This document shows positions 6,640 through 58,290 of a stretch of DNA of 64,000 nucleotides, one piece after another; position 1 is the first letter of the stretch; every line of letters starts with the position of its first letter. The notes below the pieces were generated by a model. That model ran no database searches, was not told the origin of the DNA, and saw only the letters and a list, made by a program, of their open reading frames with translations. The translations under genes and the position numbers were made by a program. The DNA is from Clostridia bacterium. GTDB lineage: Bacteria; Bacillota; Clostridia; Acetivibrionales; JAFADI01. The stretch is from assembly GCA_026418695.1 (NCBI GenBank), contig JAOAAU010000147.1, positions 1-64,000 on the forward strand, written 5' to 3'.

Positions 6640-7488
6640 TCATCCTTTTACAGCCCCTACGGTCATACTTTCAATAATCTTATCATTCAAAAACATATAT
6701 ACCAGGATGCTTGGTAAAACCATGATCATAATCGCAGCCAACTGGACTGTCCAGTCCGTTGAATACTGCCCCCTAAAGCGTGTAAGGCTCACTGGTAGCG
6801 TCATCTTGAGTGGATCCGACATGAATATCATCGCAAACATCAATTCATTCCACATGCTGACAAAGTTAAAAATTGTGATGGTTGCAATTGCTGATTTGGA
6901 TAATGGCACAATCATTCTCCAAAATACTCCCGCCATACTGCAGCCATCCATAACGGCCGCTTCTTCGATTTCTCTGGGGAAGGTGCCCATAAAACCCGTA
7001 AGGATGAATACGGATGTAGGAAGGGCAAATGCAACGTAAGGTAGAATGAGAGCTATATATTTGTCGGTAAAGCCAATGTTTTTAAAAAGTATGAAAAGCG
7101 GAATCAATGTTGAGTGTATCGGTATCATAACGCCTAAAAGGAATACAGCTAGTACCAAGCCAGACAGCTTCCATTTGAGTCTCTTGATGGCAAAAGCCGC
7201 CATACTTCCCACAAGGATTGTAATCACAACTGAAATAATTGAAACAAATACTGAATTTAAAAACCCTGTTCCTATTTTACCTGCTACCCAGGCTTTTGAG
7301 TAGTTAGCAAACTGTAATGTCGATCCAAGGGTCCATGGATTATCAAACAACTCTCCATTGCTCTTGACTGAATTTATAAGCAGCCATATCAAAGGATACA
7401 GACAGGTGATGGAAAAAACAATAAGCAAGATGTACATGATGACCTTTGAAATGGACAATTTATTTCTTTTTAATAGACTATATTCCAT
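6640..7488 (-). CDS. CUT1 sugar ABC importer permease, MalG/UgpE-like
   Basis: This 282-residue inner-membrane protein has six predicted membrane segments. The EAA loop that docks the ATPase reads EEAAVMDGCSMAGVFWRMIV followed by PLSK, and the C-terminus ESMTVGAVKG is typical of the MalG-like partner. It would form the channel with the permease encoded just upstream, fed by the lipoprotein at 8575-9924. AAGGAGAAG lies 9 nt before the start. It is last in the importer 0 operon and a strong terminator follows. The transported sugar is unknown. Confidence 0.93.
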   Translation of the reverse strand: MEYSLLKRNKLSISKVIMYILLIVFSITCLYPLIWLLINSVKSNGELFDNPWTLGSTLQFANYSKAWVAGKIGTGFLNSVFVSIISVVITILVGSMAAFAIKRLKWKLSGLVLAVFLLGVMIPIHSTLIPLFILFKNIGFTDKYIALILPYVAFALPTSVFILTGFMGTFPREIEEAAVMDGCSMAGVFWRMIVPLSKSAIATITIFNFVSMWNELMFAMIFMSDPLKMTLPVSLTRFRGQYSTDWTVQLAAIMIMVLPSILVYMFLNDKIIESMTVGAVKG

Positions 7489-22407: not shown

Positions 22408-24504
22408 TTAATAAATCGATCTGCCCTTCTCATCAGCAATCCCGGTTTTCCTATAGAAATAGGTGTTGATGACATCCCGCCATTCCTTCGCATGTTCAAT
22501 CTGCCCTTCCAGCCGCTCCAAAACATGTTCAAATACTTCGCTTTGTAACTTATCTTTCAGCAGCAACCACTGTGTTTTGAGTTCTATTGCCTGCTCCACG
22601 CCTTCAAAATGAGTATTATAAATGTGTTGAATGAGCGTTTCCCCAGACTTGAGTTTATATTGATAAGGAATCCGATGAAAGAACAGCAGCAGTTCTTCAG
22701 GACAAGTGTCCGGGTTTTCATACAACTCAGCCACTTCATTGTGATACTGCCCGGTATAGCCGGTTCCCGACTTTACAGTTCTATCAACTCCAATGGCAGC
22801 AAAATCTGCCCTGTGATACGTTCCCCATTTCTGATACTCATATCCGTCCACACTCGGACCAAAGTGATGATTGGGATTCACCATCCACCCAATACCTAAA
22901 GGAGAAGTATAATTCTCATAAATCCTCCATGAGTCAAGCAGCATCTTAGAGATGATATCTACAACCAGTCGGTCGTTGGAATAAGTCATCCTCACCCACT
23001 CTTCCGTGATTGCTTGTGAAGATAGATCGGGGTCCCATGCAAGCCGCCCAAATCCGTAAAGATTGGATTGTGCCAGCTGAAATCCGGTCCAGTTCGCATC
23101 ATCTCCGATGTTTGAAATCCCGGAAATACCACTATATTTATTTTTGAACAGGGAACCGCTTACGATCCTTTTGACCGTGGAACCTTTGCCCCTTGCATAG
23201 GTGTCAAAGTCCAGGATTTCCTTCCACATCGGAATCAGATAGCACAAGTGTTTCTGTTGGCCTGTATATTCCTGTGTAATCTGGAGTTCAAGGGTGTGAT
23301 TTGTTTTTTCAAGGCCCCCGAAGAGCGGTGAAACCGGTTCTCTCACTTGAAAATCCATGGGCCCGTTTTTGATCTGTAATACCACATTTTCATGAAAGCT
23401 CCCGTCCAGGGGTTTGAAGTGATCATAGGCCGCCTTTGCTCTATCCGTGGAATAATCCCTCCAGTCTTGAAGGCAGTTATATACAAAGCACCTCCAGATA
23501 ACGATACCTCCAAAGGGCCTTAATGCTTCCGCCAGCATATTGGCTCCATCCGCATGCGTACGTCCATAGGTAAAAGGTCCGGGTCTGAATTCGGAATCCG
23601 CCTTCACCATATAACCTCCGAAGTCAGGAATATAACTGTAGATTTCTTCTGTTTTATTCTTCCACCATTCCAGAACAGAGGGCTCCAGAGGGTCTGCAGT
23701 TTCCATGTTTCCCAGTTCGATGGGGCTTGCAAAATTGATACTCAGGAACAGTCTGATTCCATATTTTCCAAATATATCTGCCAGTTTCGCAACCGAGGAC
23801 AAATATTCTTTTGTCTTCAGTCTGGTTTCATACTGATGTACATTTACATTATTGATTACGACGCCATTGATTCCGACGGATGCAAGCAGTCTTGCATATT
23901 CTTTGATTCTTCCAAGGCTCCTGGTAACTTTATTGTTTTTGAAGAAAATTGATCGGCCGGCATATCCCCTCTCGACACTGCCATCCAGATTATCCCAATG
24001 ATTAATGATTCTCAGCGGATTTTTCGGATTCTCAAGTACATCCAGCTGACGGATATCCGCCTGCATTTGCATGAATCTCAATAAGGAGAAAACCCCATAA
24101 AGGACCCCTTTGCCATCCTTTCCTGCGATCACGATACAATTTTCCTTCCTTGCTTCTATGCTCTTAATCCGAAAGCCTTCCTTTTGAATCTGATCCCGGT
24201 CAGATTGTTTCAGCAGCGCATCAAATTTCTCGGATTTTCCAAGAATTCCGAGAATAACACACGGCAATTCTTCAATAGGTCCTAGTGTAAGATGGACAGC
24301 CGGATTGATTCCCAATAAACCTTTGATCCCCCGTGTCAACTCTGTACATGCAGTACTGACAACAGGAGCTGCTTCAACCATGGCGATATTGGTTCCCCAT
24401 TTTATGTACTGCATTCTTCGTTCCAAGTCTTGTATCAGGCCATATTTAAGCCAGCATGCATCTATCTTTTTCTCCTTGAGTGTGGATTGCTTTTTTGCTT
24501 GCAT
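22408..24504 (-). CDS. aguA: alpha-glucuronidase, glycoside hydrolase family 67
   Basis: This 698-residue enzyme removes (4-O-methyl-)glucuronic acid from the non-reducing end of xylo-oligosaccharides. GH67 hallmarks are clear: [20 protein letters not shown] with [10 protein letters not shown] following (the Glu of ADSE is the expected general acid), and [20 protein letters not shown] followed by SPLFGG with the Asp and Glu of the active site. It has an N-terminal GH67 domain (about 15-160), a central barrel (about 165-480) and a C-terminal helical domain. It has no signal peptide. GGAGG lies 9 nt before the ATG. It is divergent from the AraC gene at 24664 and upstream of the YesS-like regulator. 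Confidence 0.95.
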
Positions 24505-25535: not shown

Positions 25536-26615
25536 TTATGGTGTCTGTTTCATTTTCCTGATCGCTTCCCACAAACCGTTTAAGTATGTGATTCCCAAGG
25601 CTCTGTCATAGAGACCGTATCCCGGTCTTGCCTTCTCTCCCCAGATCATCCTTCCGTGATCCGGCCGGATATAGCCGGCAAAGCCTATATCATGATACGC
25701 TTTCATGATCTCGAACATATCAAAGGACCCATCAGAGGAAAGATGAGACGACTCGTGGAAAGTCCTGTCGGATGTAAATTTGATATTCCGCACGTGACCG
25801 AAATGGATCCTTCCCATGCTTCCAAATTGTCTTATGAGCGCAGGAATGTCATTTTCCCGGTTGGCGCCCAGGGATCCGCTGCAGAGGGTCAAGCCATTAT
25901 AGGGACTGTCCACCAGCTTGACAAGTCTTTCAAGGTTTTTCCTGGATGTAACAATTCTCGGCAGTCCAAAAAGAGACCATGGCGGATCATCCGGGTGAAT
26001 TGCCATTTTTACGTCCGTTTCTTCACAAACCGGGATGATCTGTTCAAGGAAATATTTCAAGTTGTCAAACAGCTTGTCTTCATCCACACGCTTATATTTC
26101 TCCAGAGTATCCTTTAGTTCCTTAAGCCGGTAAGGTTCCCAACCGGGTAAAGAGAAACCGTTTGAATTGGTGGCCATATCCTCCACCAGTTTCACAGGAT
26201 TCAAATCCTTGATGATCCCGTGATCATAGGCCATTGCTTCTGAGCCATCCGCTAGCTTCATTGCCAGATCCGACCTCATCCAGTCGAAGACAGGCATAAA
26301 ATTGTAACAGATGACTTTGACCCCAGCTTTGCCCAGACGACGAATGGTCTCTTTGTAATTCTTAATGTAAACTTCCCTGGAGGATAATCCAAGCTTGATA
26401 TCCTCATGAATATTCACACTTTCTATAACTTCAAGCTCCAGGCCGGCCTTCTGCACCTTGCTCTTCAATTCGAGGATTTTCTCCATGGGCCAGACTTCAC
26501 CCACAGGGACATCAAACAAAGCCCCGACCACGCCCGTAATACCGGGTATTTGTCGAATCTGCCAAAGCTCAACGCTGTCATCCTTTTCGCCAAACCAGCG
26601 GAATGTCATTTTCAT
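25536..26615 (-). CDS. uxuA: mannonate dehydratase
   Basis: This 359-residue enzyme dehydrates D-mannonate to 2-keto-3-deoxygluconate in glucuronate breakdown. Length and sequence fit UxuA throughout. Residues matching the metal site of characterised UxuA are present with the right spacing: His207 (KMAIHPDDPP), Cys245 (TLCSGSLGANREND), His274 (IHFGHVRN) and Asp319 (RPDHGRMIWG), numbered from the ATG at 26615. That start has AAAGGAGA at good distance; the ATG at 26624 would overlap it. It follows uxuB on the same strand, with a hairpin between them. Confidence 0.95.
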   Translation of the reverse strand: MKMTFRWFGEKDDSVELWQIRQIPGITGVVGALFDVPVGEVWPMEKILELKSKVQKAGLELEVIESVNIHEDIKLGLSSREVYIKNYKETIRRLGKAGVKVICYNFMPVFDWMRSDLAMKLADGSEAMAYDHGIIKDLNPVKLVEDMATNSNGFSLPGWEPYRLKELKDTLEKYKRVDEDKLFDNLKYFLEQIIPVCEETDVKMAIHPDDPPWSLFGLPRIVTSRKNLERLVKLVDSPYNGLTLCSGSLGANRENDIPALIRQFGSMGRIHFGHVRNIKFTSDRTFHESSHLSSDGSFDMFEIMKAYHDIGFAGYIRPDHGRMIWGEKARPGYGLYDRALGITYLNGLWEAIRKMKQTP

Positions 26616-26713
26616 CAAAACCATCTCCTTTCAGATGTAGATCAAGCACCTTATCAGTAAAGCATATCGCTGGAAATTTCCCCAACGCATGATTGAAGTA
26701 TTTTGAATCGAAA

Positions 26714-44663: not shown

Positions 44664-45578
44664 CTATTCTTTCACACTTCCCACACTCAACCCAACGACA
44701 AAATGCTTCTGTAGGAACGGGTATACCAACAGGATGGGTGTGGAAGCAACAATGGTGATTGCTGCGCGAATAGAGATCGGGGTCACCAGGTTCCTTGCAG
44801 TTTGCGCATCAACCCCCACAGCATTGGCCATTGCAGGATTATTGTTTGTCTGCGTTGCCGAAGCCAGGAGCTTCATCAGCTCATACTGAAGCGTGCTTAA
44901 TTCTTGCCGTCCTGAGCAGTATAAAAATGTATCAAACCAGGAATTCCAGGAACCGACAGCGACAAACAGAGCAACAGTGGCCAAGACCGGCATGCAAAGC
45001 GGAAATATGATCTGCATGAAAATTCTGAAATCACCGGCACCATCAATCTTTGCCGACTCAGCCAGGCTGTCGGGAAGAGTTCGGATATAGGTCCTGATTA
45101 CAATAAGATTGAACGCAGCTACCAGTGAAGGGACAACATAGACAAGGAAGTTGTTCATAAGGTGTAAATCCCTGATCAGCAGGTAGTTGGGGATGATCCC
45201 GGCGTTGAAGTACATGGTCATCACAAATACGACTGTAATAAACTTCCGGAAAACATATTCCCTCCTGCTTAAAGTGTATGCCAACATGGTAGTAAAGAAA
45301 ATGTTCAATACCGTTGCAAGCACAGTTCTTGCTACGGATATGAAAAACGCGTTGAAGACAGTCCCTGTGATAAATACCGCTTTATAGTTCTGAAGTGAAA
45401 AGACTCTCGGCCAAAGGTATATCCCTCCGCGTATGGTGTCCATCCCGTCATTGAAGGATACTGCAATGGTGTTTATGAAAGGGTAAAGCGTTACAACCGC
45501 AAGCAGCAGCATAAAAACAGTATTGAATAGATTAAAAGCCATGTCCCCAATATTGATCCTTTTTATACTCTTTATCAT
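44664..45578 (-). CDS. LplC-type ABC importer permease (importer 3)
   Basis: This 304-residue six-helix permease has EAA loop AESAKIDGAGDFRIFMQIIF followed by PLCMP and C-terminus FVVGLSVGSVKE. It starts 11 nt after the LplB-type gene. It is last in the operon, before a terminator. The substrate is unknown. Confidence 0.92.
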   Translation of the reverse strand: MIKSIKRINIGDMAFNLFNTVFMLLLAVVTLYPFINTIAVSFNDGMDTIRGGIYLWPRVFSLQNYKAVFITGTVFNAFFISVARTVLATVLNIFFTTMLAYTLSRREYVFRKFITVVFVMTMYFNAGIIPNYLLIRDLHLMNNFLVYVVPSLVAAFNLIVIRTYIRTLPDSLAESAKIDGAGDFRIFMQIIFPLCMPVLATVALFVAVGSWNSWFDTFLYCSGRQELSTLQYELMKLLASATQTNNNPAMANAVGVDAQTARNLVTPISIRAAITIVASTPILLVYPFLQKHFVVGLSVGSVKE

Positions 45579-45589
45579 GCTTCCGCCCC

Positions 45590-46555
45590 CTATATCAATC
45601 TTTCTTCCCCGATTTTTTTTGCCGTATAGTTCGCCATTAGCAACAGGATAATGTTTGCGATACTTTTAAAGATGCCGGCTGCCGTACCCAGCGAATAATT
45701 TCCGTTTCCAATTCCATATCGTAGAACGAATATATCGATCGTATCCGACCAATCCAAAACCATGCCGTTTCTCAGCAGGTACTGTGCTTCAAAGCCGGAA
45801 TTCAGGATATTTCCGATGCTCATGATCAAAAGGACCATAATGGTAGGCCTGATTCCCTGAAGTGTGATATACCTCATTTTATGAAACCGATTGGCACCGT
45901 CTATTTCGGCAGCTTCGTACAAGGCAGGATCAATTGCGGCAATTGCTGCTAAATAGATGATCGTATTCCAGCCTACTTCCTTCCAAACATTGGCTGCTCC
46001 AATGACACCCCAGAAATACTCCCCTTTGCTCAGCCACAGAATGGGTGCATCAATGATATGCAGCTTCATCAGGACCTCATTTACAATTCCTCCTTCTGTT
46101 GAAAGGCAGGTCTGAACAATACTCGCTACGATAACCCAGGAGAGGAAGTGGGGCAGGTAGGATATGGTCTGTATGGTTCTTTTAAACAACATGTTTTTTA
46201 ATTCATTCAGCAGCAAGGCCAGGATGATGGCTGTTACAAAGCTTAGCACAAGATTGATTACGCTCATTGCGATGGTATTCCTGAGCATTCTGATAAACCG
46301 CTCATCTGTAAATAAAAATTCAAACTGCTTGAATCCAACCCACTGCTGCTCAAAAATCCCTTTGGCAGGCGTATAGCTCTGAAAAGCGGTAAGCCAGCCC
46401 CAAAGCGGAGCGTATGAAAACAAAAGGATATATAATAAAAACGGAAACGACATGAATATCAGCTGCTTCTGATGCACGATCGTCTTCCAGCTTATTCTCA
46501 TTTTTGGATTGGATACTTCAAGGATATTTTCAGTTCTTAACTTGATGTTTGGCAT
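45590..46555 (-). CDS. LplB-type ABC importer permease (importer 3)
   Basis: This 321-residue six-helix permease has EAA loop YEAAEIDGANRFHKMRYITL followed by QGIRP. The usual Leu-Pro at the end of that motif is Leu-Gln here, which is unusual but in a tolerant position. GGGGGAG precedes the ATG. A 332-nt gap with several palindromes separates it from the binding-protein gene upstream. Confidence 0.92.
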   Translation of the reverse strand: MPNIKLRTENILEVSNPKMRISWKTIVHQKQLIFMSFPFLLYILLFSYAPLWGWLTAFQSYTPAKGIFEQQWVGFKQFEFLFTDERFIRMLRNTIAMSVINLVLSFVTAIILALLLNELKNMLFKRTIQTISYLPHFLSWVIVASIVQTCLSTEGGIVNEVLMKLHIIDAPILWLSKGEYFWGVIGAANVWKEVGWNTIIYLAAIAAIDPALYEAAEIDGANRFHKMRYITLQGIRPTIMVLLIMSIGNILNSGFEAQYLLRNGMVLDWSDTIDIFVLRYGIGNGNYSLGTAAGIFKSIANIILLLMANYTAKKIGEERLI

Positions 46556-48597: not shown

Positions 48598-48733
48598 TCT
48601 GTAATCCCCCCATTATTATTTGGAACTATCCAAGTGGAACTATCTATATTGTAAATTCCATACAGGGTTTTTCAATTTCTCAAACTAAAGGTATACCCCC
48701 CAAAAATTTAAGTTGTTGTTAAAAACCCAAGTC

Positions 48734-50332
48734 TTAGGATTTAAGTCTTTGCTTATAATCCACCGGCTTCATCCCAGTGTATTTCTCAAAATGCTGGAGA
48801 AAACCCAGATATGTGTTATAGCCCAATGCTGCAGCGACCTCATGAGATTTCAGCGTGGTGGTGGCTAAAAGCTTTTTAGCCTCTTCTATCCGCAATTGAT
48901 GAATATACTCATTCAGCCGGACTCCAAATTTCCGGCTGAACAGCTGTCCGAGATATACAGGGTGCATATAGAGTTTTTTGGATATTTCCACAATGGTGAG
49001 GTTTCTTTTAAAGTTTTCCTTTACATATTCCTGAATTTTATAGACAGTATCGTTCAGGTTTCTTTGGTTCAAGCGCTGTATATATTCGCAGCAGTCCATG
49101 CAATAATCCGTAAGTAAGTCCTTGAATTCTTCAATCGTTATTTTTCTCTCCCACTGAGAAACCGGGTGCTTTTTGAGCACTTCCAAAGGACTGCCATTTG
49201 TTTTTCTGATGATGGCAAAGCTATGGTAAACAATCTGCACAACAAGCATTCGGACAACCTCCGGAGCAAGCCATACGGATTTAAAATATGAAAACATGGA
49301 GTTCAGAGAATCGATTAACCTTGAAACATTCATCTCCTCCAGCGCCTCTATTACATGGTTGACTTCATCGAGTTTTTCAAGCATTCTGCTAAGAGACTTT
49401 TCCTTGATATAATCGTAAAAAATCACACTATTGCGTTGATTAAAGAATTTATAATACAAAGCTTGCTGTGCGGTCCGGTAAGAATGCCGAATTGAGGCAA
49501 TATTTCCAACTGCCTCACCGACTCCTATATAAAATTCAATCCCCATCGCTTTTGCAATTTCGGTCCTTAGCTTCAAGAGCAAGCACTCAATTTCCTTACA
49601 GTCCTGGGAAGACTCTCGGATATCCATCACGATTCCACAGGAGTAAAAGCTGCATTCAATCATATAAGCCCGGAAGTAGTCTCGCAGCACCTGATCCATG
49701 ATATTTTTTAAGCTTTCATCCTCACCCTGCTGCTCCTGAATATGGATTGCTTCATGTTTTAGGTGGTGGCTGATGAAAGAGCAACAGTTTTCAAGGCGGA
49801 CATATCGCCATACCGATACCGTTCTGAGGTCATCCGCAAATGCTTCCATCTGATCTGACTCATCCGGACTATATGTTCCCAGTAACAGTTCATGTATTAT
49901 AGCGCAACAATCTTCCTTTGCTTTCCCATATCTTGACCTTTGCAGTTTCTCTTCCTCCTCAAATTTCCGGGATATTTTGTGTAGGATTTCTGACAGTTCA
50001 TCCCCAAAAACAGGCTTTAGAAGATAGTAATTGACGCCATACTGCAAAGCCCTTTTCGCATATTCAAATTCACTGTAGCCGCTCATAATCACAAATTCGA
50101 CTTTGTGCTCTGTATGCTTCCACACATGTTCTATCAGGTCCAAACCGTTGATAACAGGCATCATGATATCCGTGATCACCAGATGGGGCTGAAGCTTTTC
50201 GATTTGCCGGATCGCTTCTTCTCCATCCTGACAAATACCACAGATTTCATAACCAAGCTTTTCCCATTCTACCGCAAGCTTTAACCCCTCAATGGAAAGC
50301 ACCTCATCATCTACCAGCAATACCTTATACAT
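48734..50332 (-). CDS. YesN-type AraC response regulator, second of two (importer 3)
   Basis: This 532-residue protein has a receiver domain with Asp55 (LVITDIMMPVINGLDL), a central region (about 140-415) and an AraC domain (about 430-530; MHPVYLGQLFSRKFGVRLNE, YLGFLQHFEKYTGMKPVDY). Its start codon directly follows the kinase stop codon. It is clearly a paralogue of the regulator at 52163-53776: both begin M-x-KVLL-x-DDE, carry LEGLK- or IEGLK-type helices, and share Asp55 and the HPHLVITD-type strand. The two sit either side of one kinase gene. Confidence 0.93.
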   Translation of the reverse strand: MYKVLLVDDEVLSIEGLKLAVEWEKLGYEICGICQDGEEAIRQIEKLQPHLVITDIMMPVINGLDLIEHVWKHTEHKVEFVIMSGYSEFEYAKRALQYGVNYYLLKPVFGDELSEILHKISRKFEEEEKLQRSRYGKAKEDCCAIIHELLLGTYSPDESDQMEAFADDLRTVSVWRYVRLENCCSFISHHLKHEAIHIQEQQGEDESLKNIMDQVLRDYFRAYMIECSFYSCGIVMDIRESSQDCKEIECLLLKLRTEIAKAMGIEFYIGVGEAVGNIASIRHSYRTAQQALYYKFFNQRNSVIFYDYIKEKSLSRMLEKLDEVNHVIEALEEMNVSRLIDSLNSMFSYFKSVWLAPEVVRMLVVQIVYHSFAIIRKTNGSPLEVLKKHPVSQWERKITIEEFKDLLTDYCMDCCEYIQRLNQRNLNDTVYKIQEYVKENFKRNLTIVEISKKLYMHPVYLGQLFSRKFGVRLNEYIHQLRIEEAKKLLATTTLKSHEVAAALGYNTYLGFLQHFEKYTGMKPVDYKQRLKS

Positions 50333-52159
50333 CTAAACCAGCAGCTCCTCATTTTCAGATTGATCACTTGCTAACGGTATGCGAATCCAAATGCTAGTCC
50401 CTTGGTTTTCTGCACTTTTTATATCAAAAGATATCTTATCTCCGTAATACAACTTAAGTCGCCTGTAAATATTCCTTAAACCAATGCTTTCAGCGGTTTT
50501 TTCGGGTTTCGAAATATCAGCTAGAATCCCATTGACCCTTTCCTCAGTAATTCCGATTCCATTATCTTCGACCCTTACAACAACGTGCTTAGCTTCAAGG
50601 CAGACTTGAACCTGAATCCGCCCAATCCCTTTGATGGTTTGAATTCCGTGTTTACAGGCATTTTCCACCAAAGGCTGGATGGTCATTTTGGGGATGATCT
50701 GCTGTGAAACCTCTCTGTCCATGTTGATCACATAGTCAAATTTCTCACCAAACCGGAACTTCTCAATCTTCAGATACATTTCTGTAAAGGTCAATTCCTC
50801 CTCTACGGTTACCAGATCATCCTTCCAGCTTAGAAGCCTTCTGAGCGTTTTGGACAGGTATTTGATCACTTCGGTAATTTCCGTATAACCATTCTTCACC
50901 GAAGTCACAAGTAGAGCATTCAGAGTATTAAACAAGAAATGCGGGTTCATCTGGCTTTGCAGGAAATTCAGTTCCGCGCGGACTCTTTCAAGCTCAAGAT
51001 CTTTTTTCTGAATTTCCAACTTGTACACATTATTGATTAAGGTATTGATTTTCGAGGCCATCCGGTTGAAACTGCGGATCAATCCCCCGATTTCGTCCTT
51101 TCCTTCCGTCATGCTGATGAGATCAAACTGCTGGTTCTTCGCCTTTTCCATATGCTTCAACAGCTTTTTAATCCTGTAATTATAGGACCTCAGCATGATA
51201 ATCACCAGAAACGATGAAATCACGGTACTGATGATGGCTAGAAATACTACGTAGCTTCTTGCCCTGTTCATTGCCCTGACAATGGATGTTTTATCAGCGA
51301 TCCCCACCAATCTCCATCCTTTGATATATTCCGCATTTCCGAGGGCACGATCAAATAACATCTCTTTTTCCTGCTTATCACTTCGCCGTTTTAGCTCAAT
51401 GTCTTTAAAAAGACCGTTTTCCAAACTTCGATTTGTAGCACAGGCAATCCGGCCTTCCGAATCCAGAAGAAACAGCTCCAGGTAAGAAGATTCCCTGTTG
51501 AATATCCAATACAGCGGTGTCAGGTTAATATCAATTTTTACAATCATATCCGTTGAATTTTCCGTTGGATAGTCATTCAGTTTCTTCAGAACGCTGATAT
51601 GCTGAACATATGTGTTGACAGAATTCTCCCATGCTTCCTGGTAAGTATTCAGTATAATCTTGTTTTGATTCATCATAGCGTCTTTATACCATTGACTGCT
51701 CCGAACAGAATCATCAATATTGAAGTAACACCCTCCATTCAGTATGGTTGGGTTATTGGCGTATATTCGGAGATTTCCGATCTGACTGTATATAGGGATA
51801 AATTTTGCAAACTTTTCCCGGAGTATCCGGTCGTAGACTTCATAAAACTCACTTTCGTCCGCATATCTTCTGTCCAGCGCTTCATACACTATCCGATCAG
51901 TAGAGATGGAATAGCTCGCGTATACGCATCCGTCGATCAATGCAATGATGTCCGATCTAGCCCGGTCCATGGAGATCCTGAGGTTTTCTTCCTCCCTTTC
52001 CCTGGCCGTATTGGACAGATTATCAAGGAATATCAGATTGATTGTAATAATCGGGACCAAAACACATAAAAGGTAAATCAAAAGAAATTTGTAATTCAAT
52101 GCGATATCATTAATTCTATTTATAAATGCTCCTCGTACTTTCATTCCTTTTTCCCCCAA
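50333..52159 (-). CDS. YesM-type sensor histidine kinase (importer 3)
   Basis: This 608-residue protein has a membrane helix at about 25-45, an extracellular sensor (about 48-300), a second helix (about 302-325), HAMP (about 328-380), His407 in MNPHFLFNT and a HATPase domain (ENACKHG, EDNGIGI). It is the only kinase in an operon with two YesN-type regulators, with gaps of 3 nt and 0 nt to them, so it must serve both or one of them has another partner. Confidence 0.93.
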   Translation of the reverse strand: MGEKGMKVRGAFINRINDIALNYKFLLIYLLCVLVPIITINLIFLDNLSNTAREREEENLRISMDRARSDIIALIDGCVYASYSISTDRIVYEALDRRYADESEFYEVYDRILREKFAKFIPIYSQIGNLRIYANNPTILNGGCYFNIDDSVRSSQWYKDAMMNQNKIILNTYQEAWENSVNTYVQHISVLKKLNDYPTENSTDMIVKIDINLTPLYWIFNRESSYLELFLLDSEGRIACATNRSLENGLFKDIELKRRSDKQEKEMLFDRALGNAEYIKGWRLVGIADKTSIVRAMNRARSYVVFLAIISTVISSFLVIIMLRSYNYRIKKLLKHMEKAKNQQFDLISMTEGKDEIGGLIRSFNRMASKINTLINNVYKLEIQKKDLELERVRAELNFLQSQMNPHFLFNTLNALLVTSVKNGYTEITEVIKYLSKTLRRLLSWKDDLVTVEEELTFTEMYLKIEKFRFGEKFDYVINMDREVSQQIIPKMTIQPLVENACKHGIQTIKGIGRIQVQVCLEAKHVVVRVEDNGIGITEERVNGILADISKPEKTAESIGLRNIYRRLKLYYGDKISFDIKSAENQGTSIWIRIPLASDQSENEELLV

Positions 52160-52162
52160 GCT

Positions 52163-53776
52163 TTATATAGATTTATCCTTTATCACCGGGGTTGCCTTTT
52201 GGCCAGCCCAATTCCTTTTATAGTCTGAAGGCAGGCATTTGGTGATGGCTTTAAACTTGGCTGTGAAGTACTCGGCATCATGATAACCGACCGTCTGTGC
52301 TATTTCATTCATTTTCATAGGGGTTCTTTGAAGCAGCTTCTTTGCTTCACCGATTCGGACAAAATGCAGATACTCATTGAACGACATCCCTGTATTTTTC
52401 TTAAACAGCTGTCCAAGATAGACCGGGTTCAAATAAAACTGTTTTGCCAGTTCTTGAAGCTTCAAATCCTCTGAGTAATGAAGGAGAATATACTGTTTTA
52501 TCTCTGAAATAACATCTTTCGTTGTTTCTTGAGGAGATTGTTCAAATTTTTCTATGAGTCGCTTGCAAAATTGCAAACATCCTTTTTTTAATTTTGCCAG
52601 GGTTGTACTTTCCATGTCCTGATTGAATTCCAGAAGTTCCTCAGATAGGCCCTCCATACTTCCATTTCTGCTTCGTACAAGCTGAATCCCTTCAAACTGC
52701 AGGTTGTTTACAAACATTTTTACTGTTTCCGGAGCAGTGAAACTCTTTGAAAAGCTGCTGAATACCTGATCAATTTTTCTGTGGAGTCCTTCCATATTTC
52801 CATTTCTGATATCTTCCCGCATTCCACTGGCATCTATGTCACAAAGGTCATAACATAGAGGTGTACCCCGAACTTCTTTATAGTTGATAGTACTGTCTTC
52901 TCCTTTAAAAAATTTGTACTTTAGTGCCAAGGAAGCTTGTTCATATACTTTTTGTAAAGATTCTATTCCCTTCACCTCATCACTGATGGCTACAGATATG
53001 CTGCTTCGAAATTCATTCATGATCTTTTCTCGAATTTGCTGAATGCAGGTTTCCAGTGAAAAAGCTCCTTTCATTCCTTTATTCGCAAGGATGAAAAACC
53101 TTCCTTCATTGTCTTCAAACAAATGCAAGACATTCCTTAGCCCCAAAACATCTTTAATTGCAGATGAAATCCTCTTTTTCCGCTCCAAGACCTCGACTCT
53201 CTCTGCATCTCTGGAGTCTCGAGCCGGATGATCCAATTCTATAAGCACACATTGAATTGCTTCTTCATCTCCGATATCCAGTATGAATTTGATTCTCTTA
53301 TACAGGGATTGTTTTTTTTCTCCATGAATTATTCGATATACATCATTGTTGATAATAAAAGCCAGCTGCTGATTGGTTGCTTCTTCTGACAAATATGCCT
53401 CACGAAGTTGTTTTGCAACTCTGTTGATAACAGTATTCAGTTCTTCATCATCCAGGGGCTTAAGAATATAATCGCTTACACTATACCGCATGGCGGCTTG
53501 TATATAGGAAAACTCATCATATCCGCTCAGGATGATGAACTTTGAACAGATCATGGCGGACTGGGAAACAGTTTTTATCAACTGCAGGCCATCCATGGCC
53601 GGCATTCTGATGTCTGTGATGACTAAATGGGGATTGCATGCTTTTATAATCTCTAACGCATCTTCTCCATTGGTTGCCTCACCACAAATGGAGAAGCCAT
53701 AACGTCCCCAATCCACCATGATTTTCAATCCTTCAAGGACAGAGGGTTCATCATCTATCAGAAGCACCTTAAACAA
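52163..53776 (-). CDS. YesN-type AraC response regulator, first of two (importer 3)
   Basis: This 537-residue protein has a receiver with Asp55 (LVITDIRMPAMDGLQL), a central region (about 140-415) and an AraC domain (about 425-525; LNPVYLGQLFKKNTGMSFNE, EYFTAKFKAITKCLPSDY). The start is a TTG with AAGGTG 8 nt upstream and leads directly into the conserved receiver start FKVLLIDDEPS. It leads the operon RR-HK-RR-binding protein-LplB-LplC. Confidence 0.92.
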   Translation of the reverse strand: MFKVLLIDDEPSVLEGLKIMVDWGRYGFSICGEATNGEDALEIIKACNPHLVITDIRMPAMDGLQLIKTVSQSAMICSKFIILSGYDEFSYIQAAMRYSVSDYILKPLDDEELNTVINRVAKQLREAYLSEEATNQQLAFIINNDVYRIIHGEKKQSLYKRIKFILDIGDEEAIQCVLIELDHPARDSRDAERVEVLERKKRISSAIKDVLGLRNVLHLFEDNEGRFFILANKGMKGAFSLETCIQQIREKIMNEFRSSISVAISDEVKGIESLQKVYEQASLALKYKFFKGEDSTINYKEVRGTPLCYDLCDIDASGMREDIRNGNMEGLHRKIDQVFSSFSKSFTAPETVKMFVNNLQFEGIQLVRSRNGSMEGLSEELLEFNQDMESTTLAKLKKGCLQFCKRLIEKFEQSPQETTKDVISEIKQYILLHYSEDLKLQELAKQFYLNPVYLGQLFKKNTGMSFNEYLHFVRIGEAKKLLQRTPMKMNEIAQTVGYHDAEYFTAKFKAITKCLPSDYKRNWAGQKATPVIKDKSI

Positions 53777-54084: not shown

Positions 54085-54930
54085 CTATTTGCTGGATTCT
54101 ATCATTGATTTAGCAGCCACCTCAAGTGTATCTAGATTTAGGTCTCCCAAATCGGATAGAATGTAATACAATCCACCCTGTTCCCATACAATGGCGTGCA
54201 TGGTTTTAATCTCTTTGGGCGGCCTGGTCACGTCATTTTCAAAAGCGCCTTCCCCTTTGGCGATATTCTCGTAGATGGGCATCGGCTGTTCACAATAAAC
54301 CAATGTTTTGTTTCCTAGCTTTATTTCCTGTCTGTTATCCCCTTTATCCTTCAGGTTCATATACTCAGGGCTTGGGTAATCTATTTCCTGAAGGAATATC
54401 AAGGATTTATCCTTCTTAAAAATAGCATTGATCCCCTTTTTACTGGAATCATCCCAGGTGATAACCCCTTTTCCATCCAGGACAAACCCACCTTTCAGAC
54501 TGGATGGTATTTTATCCGCAAAACCCACTTCCTTGGTCATATCCTTGTTTTCAGGATTTTTTGACATTAACGTAGTCGTAGTATGCATCTCCGCCCTGTC
54601 ATCCGGAATTTGAACCGCTTTATACTTCCCGTCCTCCCCTTTTACTACGGTATAAATCATGGAAACGGCCTGCTGAGCCATGGCTCTTACCGGCTGAACA
54701 AATGCCACAACGAGCGCGAGAGCAATAATTGCACAGGATGCTGTTGCAATTGTTCTCCCAACAACTGAATGCTTGAATAATTTATAATTTGAATTCATCC
54801 TATACCCCTCACTTTTTGCTTTTAATCTGGATTTTGCTCCGACCAGCGGCCCATTGCCAAGTTCAAAACCGCTTTCCCCTTCTGTCAGGGCATTCTTGAT
54901 CAACTTCTCAAACTGCATCTCATTATTCAT
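54085..54930 (-). CDS. probable anti-sigma factor with DUF4367-like domain
   Basis: This protein of about 281 residues has a cytoplasmic N-terminus (about 1-55, MNNEMQFEKLIKNALTEGE), a single membrane helix (about 58-80, TIATASCAIIALALVVAF) and an extracellular part ending in a DUF4367-like domain (WEQGGLYYILSDLGDLNLDT). I set the start at the ATG at 54930, which overlaps the sigma-factor stop region and has AAGGAG upstream. This gene order and topology are typical of membrane anti-sigma factors that hold their ECF sigma factor until an envelope signal arrives. Function is inferred from context. Confidence 0.78.
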   Translation of the reverse strand: MNNEMQFEKLIKNALTEGESGFELGNGPLVGAKSRLKAKSEGYRMNSNYKLFKHSVVGRTIATASCAIIALALVVAFVQPVRAMAQQAVSMIYTVVKGEDGKYKAVQIPDDRAEMHTTTTLMSKNPENKDMTKEVGFADKIPSSLKGGFVLDGKGVITWDDSSKKGINAIFKKDKSLIFLQEIDYPSPEYMNLKDKGDNRQEIKLGNKTLVYCEQPMPIYENIAKGEGAFENDVTRPPKEIKTMHAIVWEQGGLYYILSDLGDLNLDTLEVAAKSMIESSK

Positions 54931-55519
54931 GGATTGCACACTCCTTTCCAAGGTATCGTACTCTCTCAAACGAACCACTTCCAAAGCTTCCTTTGAGTTC
55001 CTTCTCCAATTCTTTTTTTGCATAATGCAACCGGGATTTTACCGTCCCTTGGAAACATTTCATTACCTCTGCAATTTCTTTAATCGACAGCCCATTATAG
55101 TAATAAAGAATGATGACTGTACGCATCTCCGGCTTCAACCTGCCGATGGCATTTCTTACGAATCGGCTTGCTTCATTGGCTTCTACGACTTCGGTGATAT
55201 CGATCCCGGAATCAACTTGTTCCTTCATACTATCAGACAGGCTGTCTGCTGCTGTTTTCTTTTCTTTTCCTACCATATGCCAGCATTTTCTGATGAGGAT
55301 GCGGTTGAACCAAACCGGAAACACTTCTGGCCTCCGAAGCTTTTTAATATCCCTAAAGCATTCAAAAAAAGCTTCCTGTAGGATATCCTCGGCAACATCC
55401 CTGCGTCCTGAAATAAGATATGCCGTCCAAAGCGCCTTTTTCCCCAGCACTTTGTAGAGCTCGTCAAAAGCATCCTCCTCTTCTTTCTGGCAACGCTGTA
55501 TTAAATCTGCATCAATCAT
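54923..55519 (-). CDS. ECF-type RNA polymerase sigma factor
   Basis: This 198-residue sigma factor has region 2 (about 10-80; AFDELYKVLGKKALWTAYLI and DVAEDILQEAFFECFRDIKK) and region 4 (about 115-170; LKPEMRTVIILYYYNGLSIK, EIAEVMKCFQGTVKSRLHYA). I chose the ATG at 55519 because AAAGGAG lies 8 nt upstream. The 3' end overlaps the anti-sigma gene by 8 nt, so they are coupled. Upstream there is a TGAACC box and a palindrome GGAGTACTCC (55567-55576), perhaps an autoregulated ECF promoter, but the -10 is unclear. Confidence 0.9.
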   Translation of the reverse strand: MIDADLIQRCQKEEEDAFDELYKVLGKKALWTAYLISGRRDVAEDILQEAFFECFRDIKKLRRPEVFPVWFNRILIRKCWHMVGKEKKTAADSLSDSMKEQVDSGIDITEVVEANEASRFVRNAIGRLKPEMRTVIILYYYNGLSIKEIAEVMKCFQGTVKSRLHYAKKELEKELKGSFGSGSFERVRYLGKECAIHE

Positions 55520-55585
55520 CCTCTGACTCCTTTCAAAAGGTGCACCTTTCATAGATATAAGTGGCAGGAGTACTCCAAAAGGTTC

Positions 55586-55679: not shown

Positions 55680-57902
55680 TTATTTTATCGTAAAATCACA
55701 ATCTTTGATCGTGCTGTAAAAACTCTTTACCGGGCTGTAATCGCTGATATTGTTGCCGCCCAAATAAAGTGTTTCCAGTCCCTTCATATCCCGAAGACTT
55801 GAAATATCCTTGATTTTATTATCCGTCATATAAAGTTTTTTCATCTTGGTAAGCTTGCTTAATGCTTTGATATCCTCTATCTGATTCCCGTTCAAAGAAA
55901 GTTCCTTCAATTCTTTGAATCCTTCTATCGTACTGATCTCTCTGATAGAATTTCTCTGCAAATATAAAGTCTCCAGCTTGTTTAAAGCTTTTAAAGAATT
56001 AACCTCTGTGACTTTATTATTGGCCAGACTCAGATACTTCAAGTTGTTCAGCTGACTCAGCGGCTTGATGTCCCCGATCTTGTTTCCTTCCAGACACAGC
56101 TCCTGTAAACTGTTCAAATTGCTTAGGCTCGAGATATCCTGGATTCTATTCAGGCTCAGGTATAACTTGCTCAGTTTTGTCAGGCTGTTCAGCGTACTGA
56201 TACCGGTGATCTGATTCTCCCTCAGATACAGTTCTCTTAGGTCTTTAAGTCCGGATAAAGCGTCTACCTTGGAAACTGCATTCCCGTTTAATGAAAGAAC
56301 CTGCAGCTTTGTTAACCCCTTCAATGGAGCAATGTCGGAAATCTGATTCCTCTGCAGATATAAAGCTTTCAGATTCACCAGGGAGCTTAGCGGACTGATA
56401 TTTGTGATGCCGCTGCTTTGGGCATCCAGGTATTCCAAATTCACAAGATACTTTAAATCGCTAATGTCTGAAACTCCTGCTGGTAGCTTGAACCGGTAGA
56501 TACTTTCCAGTTCGCTCCTATTAATGCTTCCAGAATCCTTGGAAAGCTTGCTTCTTATTGCTTCCTCCAGCTTTTTATCTTTAAACTGCACCATATCACC
56601 CTGTTTTATTCCTGAAGCGCCTTTACTCTTAACTTCCTTCAGAATGTTTTCCCACACATCCAGGTGATAGCTCTTCCCGTTTGTATCATTATAGTCAGGA
56701 ATATTTCCTATACCCCACAAGGAGATTCCACCCAGTTGATAGGTTTTGGCAAGATTGATTTTTGAAGCGATGCTGATGCTGTCTTCATAAACGAGAATAT
56801 TGTATGTCTTATCCTGTTTGTTAAAATACTCAATAAACGGGCTTTGAAGTTCGTTATTGAACCCGCGTCCGATACCAATTCCATTTCCATCCGCATTATC
56901 TATTCTTTTTTTAATCATCGCATAGGTTGGCGTCAGCTTGATATCCTTGCTGACATTTGTATCTTCCAGTTGGTTCCATGCACTCCCATCCGGCAGGTCA
57001 AATCTCCACTGGGCACTGTCAAAGGCAATCTGCAGCCAGACCTTATTCATTTCTGTACTGGAAATACTGTTTTTAACATCTTCCAAAGCCATCCGGACTT
57101 TTCCCGCAGGGGCCGGACTGTCAATTGGCTCCAATGTATTAAAGCCGGTATACATAGCTACTTCACTCTTTTTTAATGCAGTAGAAGGTTCATAATCATG
57201 GGCCATAACGATCATACGGTCAGCTATCTTAACGATTTCCTTATAATCAAAGCCATCGTAATAGATGCGGGGATTGACTGCAACATACAGCATCTTATTG
57301 ATTTTATCCAGTTCTCCGTTCAATTCCTTTAAGAATAGATTAAAGTAGCTGCTGATCGGCTGATTGTTATATAGGATCTTATTTCCCTGATCATCCGTAT
57401 TTCTTAATCCTTCAAAGTCAACCACCACGCCGTCATAATACAGGGATTGATCTTTTCCGATATCCTGTTTCAGAAGATTGATAACCGCCTGTACAGCCTT
57501 CCCTCTGCTGCTTGCATCCGGAAGAATACGCTCTGCGTTATATCCATCTGTAAAAATGTTGATTTGAATGGATTTGCCTTTACTCTTTGCGAACTTGACC
57601 GGTTTTAGATAATCCTCCGGATAGTAAAACATCGTATTGTCATTTCGACCTTTGGTGGTTGTTACCGATTCAAGGTCATTGTAGAAAAGCCTGCCCCATG
57701 CAAAAGTAACGGAATCGAGACGCTCCATATACTTTTCGAGTTCAGGCGAATAGCTTAAGCCTGTAGGATAAAACGCATGCAGTTCCGAGCCGTTTGGTGT
57801 ACCGCCTTGATCTGCACCTTGTGCAAATATGGATCCAATAGATGTGCTGCAAACAAAAATACTGATGAATATGTAAAGTAACACCCTCAATTTCTTATTC
57901 AT
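55680..57902 (-). CDS. secreted GH18-like protein fused to leucine-rich repeats
   Basis: This protein of 740 residues begins with a signal peptide (MNKKLRVLLYIFISIFVCST, ending near AQG). A glycoside hydrolase 18-type barrel (about 40-425) contains DGVVVDFEG, the DxxxDxE-type catalytic motif (Asp157, Asp162 and Glu164 from the ATG at 57902), and the family's late GGISLWGIGN strand. From about 477 to the end there are roughly eleven 22-residue leucine-rich repeats of the bacterial internalin/SDS22 type (LYLQRNQISDIAPLKGLTKL). GH18 proteins of this YdhD/SleL-like class cut peptidoglycan or chitin-like glycans. It starts 1 nt after the blaI-type gene and is surely co-transcribed. Confidence 0.88.
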   Translation of the reverse strand: MNKKLRVLLYIFISIFVCSTSIGSIFAQGADQGGTPNGSELHAFYPTGLSYSPELEKYMERLDSVTFAWGRLFYNDLESVTTTKGRNDNTMFYYPEDYLKPVKFAKSKGKSIQINIFTDGYNAERILPDASSRGKAVQAVINLLKQDIGKDQSLYYDGVVVDFEGLRNTDDQGNKILYNNQPISSYFNLFLKELNGELDKINKMLYVAVNPRIYYDGFDYKEIVKIADRMIVMAHDYEPSTALKKSEVAMYTGFNTLEPIDSPAPAGKVRMALEDVKNSISSTEMNKVWLQIAFDSAQWRFDLPDGSAWNQLEDTNVSKDIKLTPTYAMIKKRIDNADGNGIGIGRGFNNELQSPFIEYFNKQDKTYNILVYEDSISIASKINLAKTYQLGGISLWGIGNIPDYNDTNGKSYHLDVWENILKEVKSKGASGIKQGDMVQFKDKKLEEAIRSKLSKDSGSINRSELESIYRFKLPAGVSDISDLKYLVNLEYLDAQSSGITNISPLSSLVNLKALYLQRNQISDIAPLKGLTKLQVLSLNGNAVSKVDALSGLKDLRELYLRENQITGISTLNSLTKLSKLYLSLNRIQDISSLSNLNSLQELCLEGNKIGDIKPLSQLNNLKYLSLANNKVTEVNSLKALNKLETLYLQRNSIREISTIEGFKELKELSLNGNQIEDIKALSKLTKMKKLYMTDNKIKDISSLRDMKGLETLYLGGNNISDYSPVKSFYSTIKDCDFTIK

Positions 57903-57903
57903 T

Positions 57904-58290
57904 TCAATCCCCCTCTTCCTCACTCTTACTGTCTAAAATCTGTTTAAGCTCTTCGATTTCGGCTTTGGATAATTTCCGGTCTTCAATGAATTTGGCAACC
58001 ATCACATTCAAAGCGCCATCATAAATCCGATCCAGGAACGATTGACTTTCCGCTTTCACACACTCGTCTTCGGAAACAATAGGATAATATAGATAGCTGC
58101 GGCCATCCTTTTCAAAGTCCACTGCTTTTTTATTGACCAGCCTGTTAATTAAAGTCTTTACGGTTTTTGGCTTCCAGTTGGCGACACCTTCAAGTCTATC
58201 GATGACCACACTGGCTGAAATAGGAGATTGGGTCCAGAGAATTTTCATGACCTGCCACTCCGTATCTGAGATTCTTGGTACTTTCGACAT
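57904..58290 (-). CDS. BlaI/MecI family transcriptional repressor
   Basis: This 128-residue winged-helix repressor has an N-terminal DNA-binding domain (about 1-75; ISDTEWQVMKILWTQSPISA, WKPKTVKTLINRLVNKKAV) and a C-terminal dimerisation helix region. Relatives are normally inactivated by the membrane protease BlaR1/MecR1, usually encoded next door. Here no M56 peptidase gene is present; its partner is the GH18-LRR gene beginning 1 nt downstream. I chose the ATG at 58290, with GGGGGT upstream. It is divergent from a two-component system. Confidence 0.9.
   Translation of the reverse strand: MSKVPRISDTEWQVMKILWTQSPISASVVIDRLEGVANWKPKTVKTLINRLVNKKAVDFEKDGRSYLYYPIVSEDECVKAESQSFLDRIYDGALNVMVAKFIEDRKLSKAEIEELKQILDSKSEEEGD

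Follow-up and report, generated by a model that had tools for sequence, protein, structure and literature searches.

A conserved YesM/YesN variant with one histidine kinase between two AraC-type response regulators, upstream of an LplA-type importer

The usual picture of two-component systems is one of insulated one-to-one pairs; when a regulator is duplicated, the copies are expected to separate so that cross-talk is avoided. The aldouronate cluster of Paenibacillus sp. JDR-2 has a YesM/N system (Chow 2007, as cited in PMC3572039), and systems of this type have been presented as pairs of one kinase and one regulator. Ccel_0147/0148 of Ruminiclostridium cellulolyticum were likened to the JDR-2 aldouronate YesM/N (PMC3572039). 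In the same organism, XydS/XydR and CuaS/CuaR likewise provide AraC-type two-component control of plant-polysaccharide genes, with a 19-nt motif before importer genes proposed for CuaR (PMC3572039, PMC3656788, PMC10384115). A precedent for regulator partnership at shared sites is Brucella EssS-EssR-CenR (PMC10592609), although the second regulator is non-cognate there, is encoded outside any regulator-kinase-regulator operon, and the regulator families and function differ from those of the module described here. This module shares the kinase family, AraC-type regulator family, importer type and xylan-related neighbours of YesM/YesN systems found beside LplA-type importers, but always contains a second full-length regulator. 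The Xyd and Cua systems, in contrast, have one regulator each, the third component of Cua being a solute-binding protein. No description of a module with one kinase and two AraC-type regulators was found in the literature searched.

The module is located on the minus strand of a 64-kb stretch of clostridial DNA, hereafter the window, where the LplA-type importer adjoins the two-component genes and is preceded by a conserved element. The genes are:

52163-53776, minus strand: R1, AraC-type response regulator, with a TTG start behind GGAAGG
50333-52159, minus strand: YesM-type histidine kinase, the likelier start being the ATG at 52144
48734-50332, minus strand: R2, response regulator of the AraC type, paralogous to R1, with an ATG that abuts the kinase stop codon
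46888-48597, minus strand: LplA-type solute-binding protein (SBP)
45590-46555, minus strand: importer permease 1
44664-45578, minus strand: importer permease 2, for which the permease profile also matches in relatives

R1, the kinase and R2 form a single operon-like run followed by the importer. The original prediction had given this order with gaps of 3 and 0 nt. Order, strand, coordinates and the gap of 0 (TAG directly followed by ATG at the kinase/R2 junction) are borne out, while the 3-nt R1-kinase gap is obtained only with a TTG start of the kinase at 52159. The likelier start is ATG 52144, located behind GGGGGAAAAAGG, and hence the R1-kinase gap would be 18 nt, as was likewise found in five relatives. 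Also as predicted, the importer (the third in the window) comes next after the triplet, with the SBP and two permeases on the same strand beyond R2, and the other two Yes systems in the window are single pairs (42706/41109 and 10043/11830). The window's own genome (4.2 Mb, 83% complete) contains 32 PF06580 (YesM-type kinase) matches, and no second regulator-kinase-regulator order was present among the kinase loci inspected there. An ECF sigma factor (window 54085-55552) is encoded directly upstream of R1 and overlaps by ~100 nt with a membrane protein, which is probably its anti-sigma factor. A GH18-like domain fused to approximately ten leucine-rich repeats is encoded at 55680-57923.

The kinase has the domains of a membrane-anchored YesM-type protein, with Pfam matches to His_kinase (PF06580, 85 bits) and HATPase_c (47 bits) and a weak HAMP match. 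Both R1 and R2 consist of Response_reg, GGDEF_2 and HTH_18 domains, the GGDEF-like region forming a linker between the receiver and the AraC domain, and both thus combine the receiver, AraC-type DNA-binding domain and phospho-Asp of a YesN-type regulator. Asp55 is the phospho-acceptor position in each; across the related loci the phospho-Asp is kept in 90/90 R1 and 91/91 R2 receivers having a residue at that position, and the receiver Lys in 91/91 of either. The Pfam HTH_AraC sub-model falls under its cut-off for R2 (21.9 vs 26.6 bits). In AlphaFold models computed with the aid of orthologues, the R1 and R2 proteins of the window both have a complete two-HTH AraC domain with high local confidence. 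The proposal that both regulators are unbroken, with Asp55 and a full AraC domain, is hence supported, and R1 and R2 look functional as judged from sequence and models. The idea that one of them has a degenerate receiver or DNA-binding domain was considered and rejected given the Asp/Lys conservation and the complete AraC models. The first HTH is similar in R1 and R2 (PVYLGQLF in the window). The second HTH of R1 (GY.D..YF..KFK) resembles that of single regulators, and that of R2 (GY..Y..FL..FEK) is conserved and R2-specific.

To determine the distribution of the triplet, loci were picked by kinase match alone, ignoring neighbours, and flanking regulators were detected by a frame-independent domain scan. 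A kinase search of 60 relatives revealed twelve orthologues at 49-52% identity, the next group being at 33-37%. Each of the twelve has flanking regulators and, where the contig is long enough, an importer of the same type after the triplet. A phylum-wide set of 399 genomes contributed eight more loci at 43-50% identity, again all triplets (8/8), and a strong kinase match was found in 210/400 genomes of one family. Among the loci examined, a same-strand regulator is present on both sides wherever the kinase is 41% identical or more (91/91), although these loci derive mostly from one family and do not represent 91 independent events. Receiver and DNA-binding domains are detected on both sides in 90/91, the remaining locus (L183, with a short flank) containing a full R1 and only the receiver of R2. 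For kinases that are 33-37% identical, same-strand regulators on both sides occur in 0/26 loci; five of these (L052-L056) have an R2-like regulator, but it is shorter and convergent. The two-regulator arrangement in place of one kinase with one regulator therefore distinguishes all 91 close loci, and the possibility raised at the outset, that the order might be absent from all relatives, is excluded. The triplet is old and has been retained in many Bacillota genomes, ranging from Clostridia to Paenibacillaceae-like families, and the extra regulator seems obligate in this YesM/YesN-type module.

In the triplet locus L046 (genome G042, ~6907-6917, minus strand), an in-frame stop splits R2 between the receiver and the DNA-binding part, with R1, kinase and element intact; this is either a natural loss or a sequencing error. 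At a separate locus of the window's own genome, L066 (G000:C28, 5547-7646, minus strand), a full YesM-type kinase ORF adjoins a 192-aa kinase fragment, possibly a broken or split kinase, and one regulator.

Phylogenetic analysis places R1 in one clade (95) and R2 in another (98), rearranged loci included, with single-regulator relatives outside both. Regulator distances track those of the kinase (r = 0.89 for R1 and 0.95 for R2), and R2 diverges faster than R1 in 56/66 comparisons. The separate clades and the distances following the kinase indicate that R2 arose early and has since been passed on together with the kinase, in line with one old duplication and subsequent joint inheritance of R1 and R2 with the kinase. 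A local or recent duplication was rejected on the basis of the 91/91 conservation and the separate old clades.

The interval between R2 and the importer contains a conserved element, the end of which is located 72-89 nt upstream of the importer start where R2-importer gaps were compared. In the window, its components are:

48669-48712, minus strand: composite element in the R2-importer interval, conserved in relatives
48704-48712, minus strand: A1 box CTTAAATTT
48696-48701, minus strand: GGGGGG box
48682-48690, minus strand: A2 box CTTTAGTTT
48673-48681, minus strand: second B box GAGAAATTG
48648-48653, minus strand: TACAAT, candidate -10 box for the importer promoter, aligned with TATAAT/GATAAT of relatives

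The constant distance to the element in relatives makes TACAAT a candidate for the importer -10 box. Using an element profile built without the window's sequence, the window's copy scored 34.6 bits, compared to 12.9 for the next best place in the 64 kb. The layout across 35 copies consists of two CTTwAATTT A boxes 21-22 bp apart, a spacing that would be dimer-sized, each followed by a B box. With box limits set after inspecting the sequences, the A boxes of these 35 copies are alike above expectation (6.23/9 vs 3.55), while the B boxes do not resemble each other beyond chance (2.60/11 vs 3.00 expected); the left B box is GGGG, which is conserved, and the right GAAATTG. Whole-genome scans of seven clostridial genomes (the window's own and six others) revealed a single strong site in each, always that of the importer, and no element upstream of R1. 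The element recurs in Paenibacillaceae-like loci, and some of these genomes have copies before GH10, GH11 or R1 itself. Weaker copies in other families are located upstream of a GH11 xylanase gene (L248, ~1500-2337) and of GH10 (L113, 10737-11732), and hence the regulon is presumably larger there. All extra copies share the GGGG-type layout, with no second class. In several Paenibacillaceae-like loci (L217, L223, L226, L227 and similar), the right half shares bases with a sequence resembling a cre site for catabolite repression, e.g. TTGCAAGCGCATACAT, which may account for part of the right-half conservation in such loci.

The unlike B boxes had been considered as proof of a heterodimer, an argument that was withdrawn since single-regulator relatives within L208-L215 and L120-L128 have unlike second boxes too. 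Like second boxes are found in the single-regulator loci L118 and L122. A GGGTA half-site is promoter-proximal in single-regulator L208, L211, L214 and L215, whereas the GGGG half-site is distal in two-regulator loci. Scanning individual promoters for direct repeats, with shuffled sequences for comparison, gave a mixed outcome and did not cleanly split one- from two-regulator systems.

In relatives, GH10, GH43, GH67 and polysaccharide deacetylase genes adjoin the module, as would be expected of an aldouronate or xylan-fragment system. The window has no xylanase beside the importer; its GH67 (22408-24504) and UxuA (mannonate dehydratase, 25536-26624) are not adjacent and lie 20-25 kb from the module. 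Given the GH10/GH11/GH43/GH67 neighbours, xylan fragments are the presumed substrate of the importer and source of the signal. One of the related loci, L041, very probably corresponds to Ccel_0147-0153 of R. cellulolyticum; by gene counting, R1 would be 0147, the kinase 0148, the second regulator 0149 and GH10 0153. The Ccel_0147/Ccel_0148 pair of PMC3572039 is thus probably the same module, presented there as a simple pair with the second regulator unmentioned, and the GH10 Ccel_0153 is recorded as xylan-specific (PMC3656788).

We consider it fairly probable, from the sequence comparisons, that the locus encodes a three-protein module in which one kinase phosphorylates R1 and R2, both acting jointly at a single composite importer site, as a heterodimer or as cooperating proteins. 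Phosphotransfer to both regulators, their joint action, heterodimer formation and the nature of the substrate are what we infer in this scheme. The kinase would respond, either itself or via a binding protein, to a sugar signal outside the cell, with (glucurono)xylo-oligosaccharides the likeliest, and would pass phosphate to both R1 and R2. At the composite site before the importer genes both regulators would be required, each occupying one half-site. Their similar first HTHs would recognize the repeated CTTwAATTT boxes, while the GGGG and GAAATTG boxes, which differ from each other, would be contacted by the divergent second HTHs. Joint action is favoured because of the strict co-retention of both regulators, the single site class and the matching similar-plus-divergent pattern of HTHs and boxes. 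The R1:R2 heterodimer put forward in the original prediction is suggested in so far as it is compatible with the composite site and the divergent second HTH; however, asymmetric sites also occur in some single-regulator relatives, and the site alone is thus no proof of a heterodimer. More tentatively, the module may possibly constitute an obligate AND-type switch, in which duplicated AraC-family regulators served by the same kinase turn on the promoter only when phosphorylated and joined as a heterodimer on composite half-sites.

Other roles for a second regulator can be envisaged. The kinase might phosphorylate both regulators with each serving its own promoter set, for example the importer and enzymes elsewhere. 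The consistently different second HTHs would suit such an arrangement, one regulator could read an unrelated sequence elsewhere, and the copies before GH10, GH11 or R1 in some Paenibacillaceae-like genomes indicate that regulons can be larger. However, only one site class was found, to which all extra GGGG-type copies belong, and the seven clostridial genomes each have a single importer copy and none before R1. The earlier suggestion that one signal is split to two promoters consequently finds no support, and we regard this arrangement as unlikely. Alternatively, one regulator, probably the faster-evolving R2, might tune the other as an A-box competitor or phosphate sink and not as a co-activator. 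This agrees with the faster divergence of R2 in 56/66 comparisons, the single-regulator-type second HTH retained by R1, and L046, where R2 is interrupted and the element intact. R2 nonetheless keeps its receiver and full DNA-binding domain throughout, and a pure sink needs no conserved second HTH of its own, rendering a modulator role unlikely. YesM/YesN pairs are abundant in the genome, as the 32 His_kinase matches illustrate, and a chance neighbour or a recent, functionless local duplication could in principle give the same gene order; the 91/91 conservation, separate old clades and intact active sites make this highly improbable. We thus retain joint action of R1 and R2 at the importer site as the preferred reading.

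The module is a conserved YesM/YesN variant with an extra regulator, and not the standard pair. In 91/91 related loci, the duplicate remains alongside the same kinase, its phosphorylation site and DNA-binding domain being intact. This provides a natural system for asking how a single kinase works with two regulators, and equally whether composite promoters are read by regulator heterodimers. In xylan-degrading bacteria, annotations treating such loci as simple pairs would need correcting.
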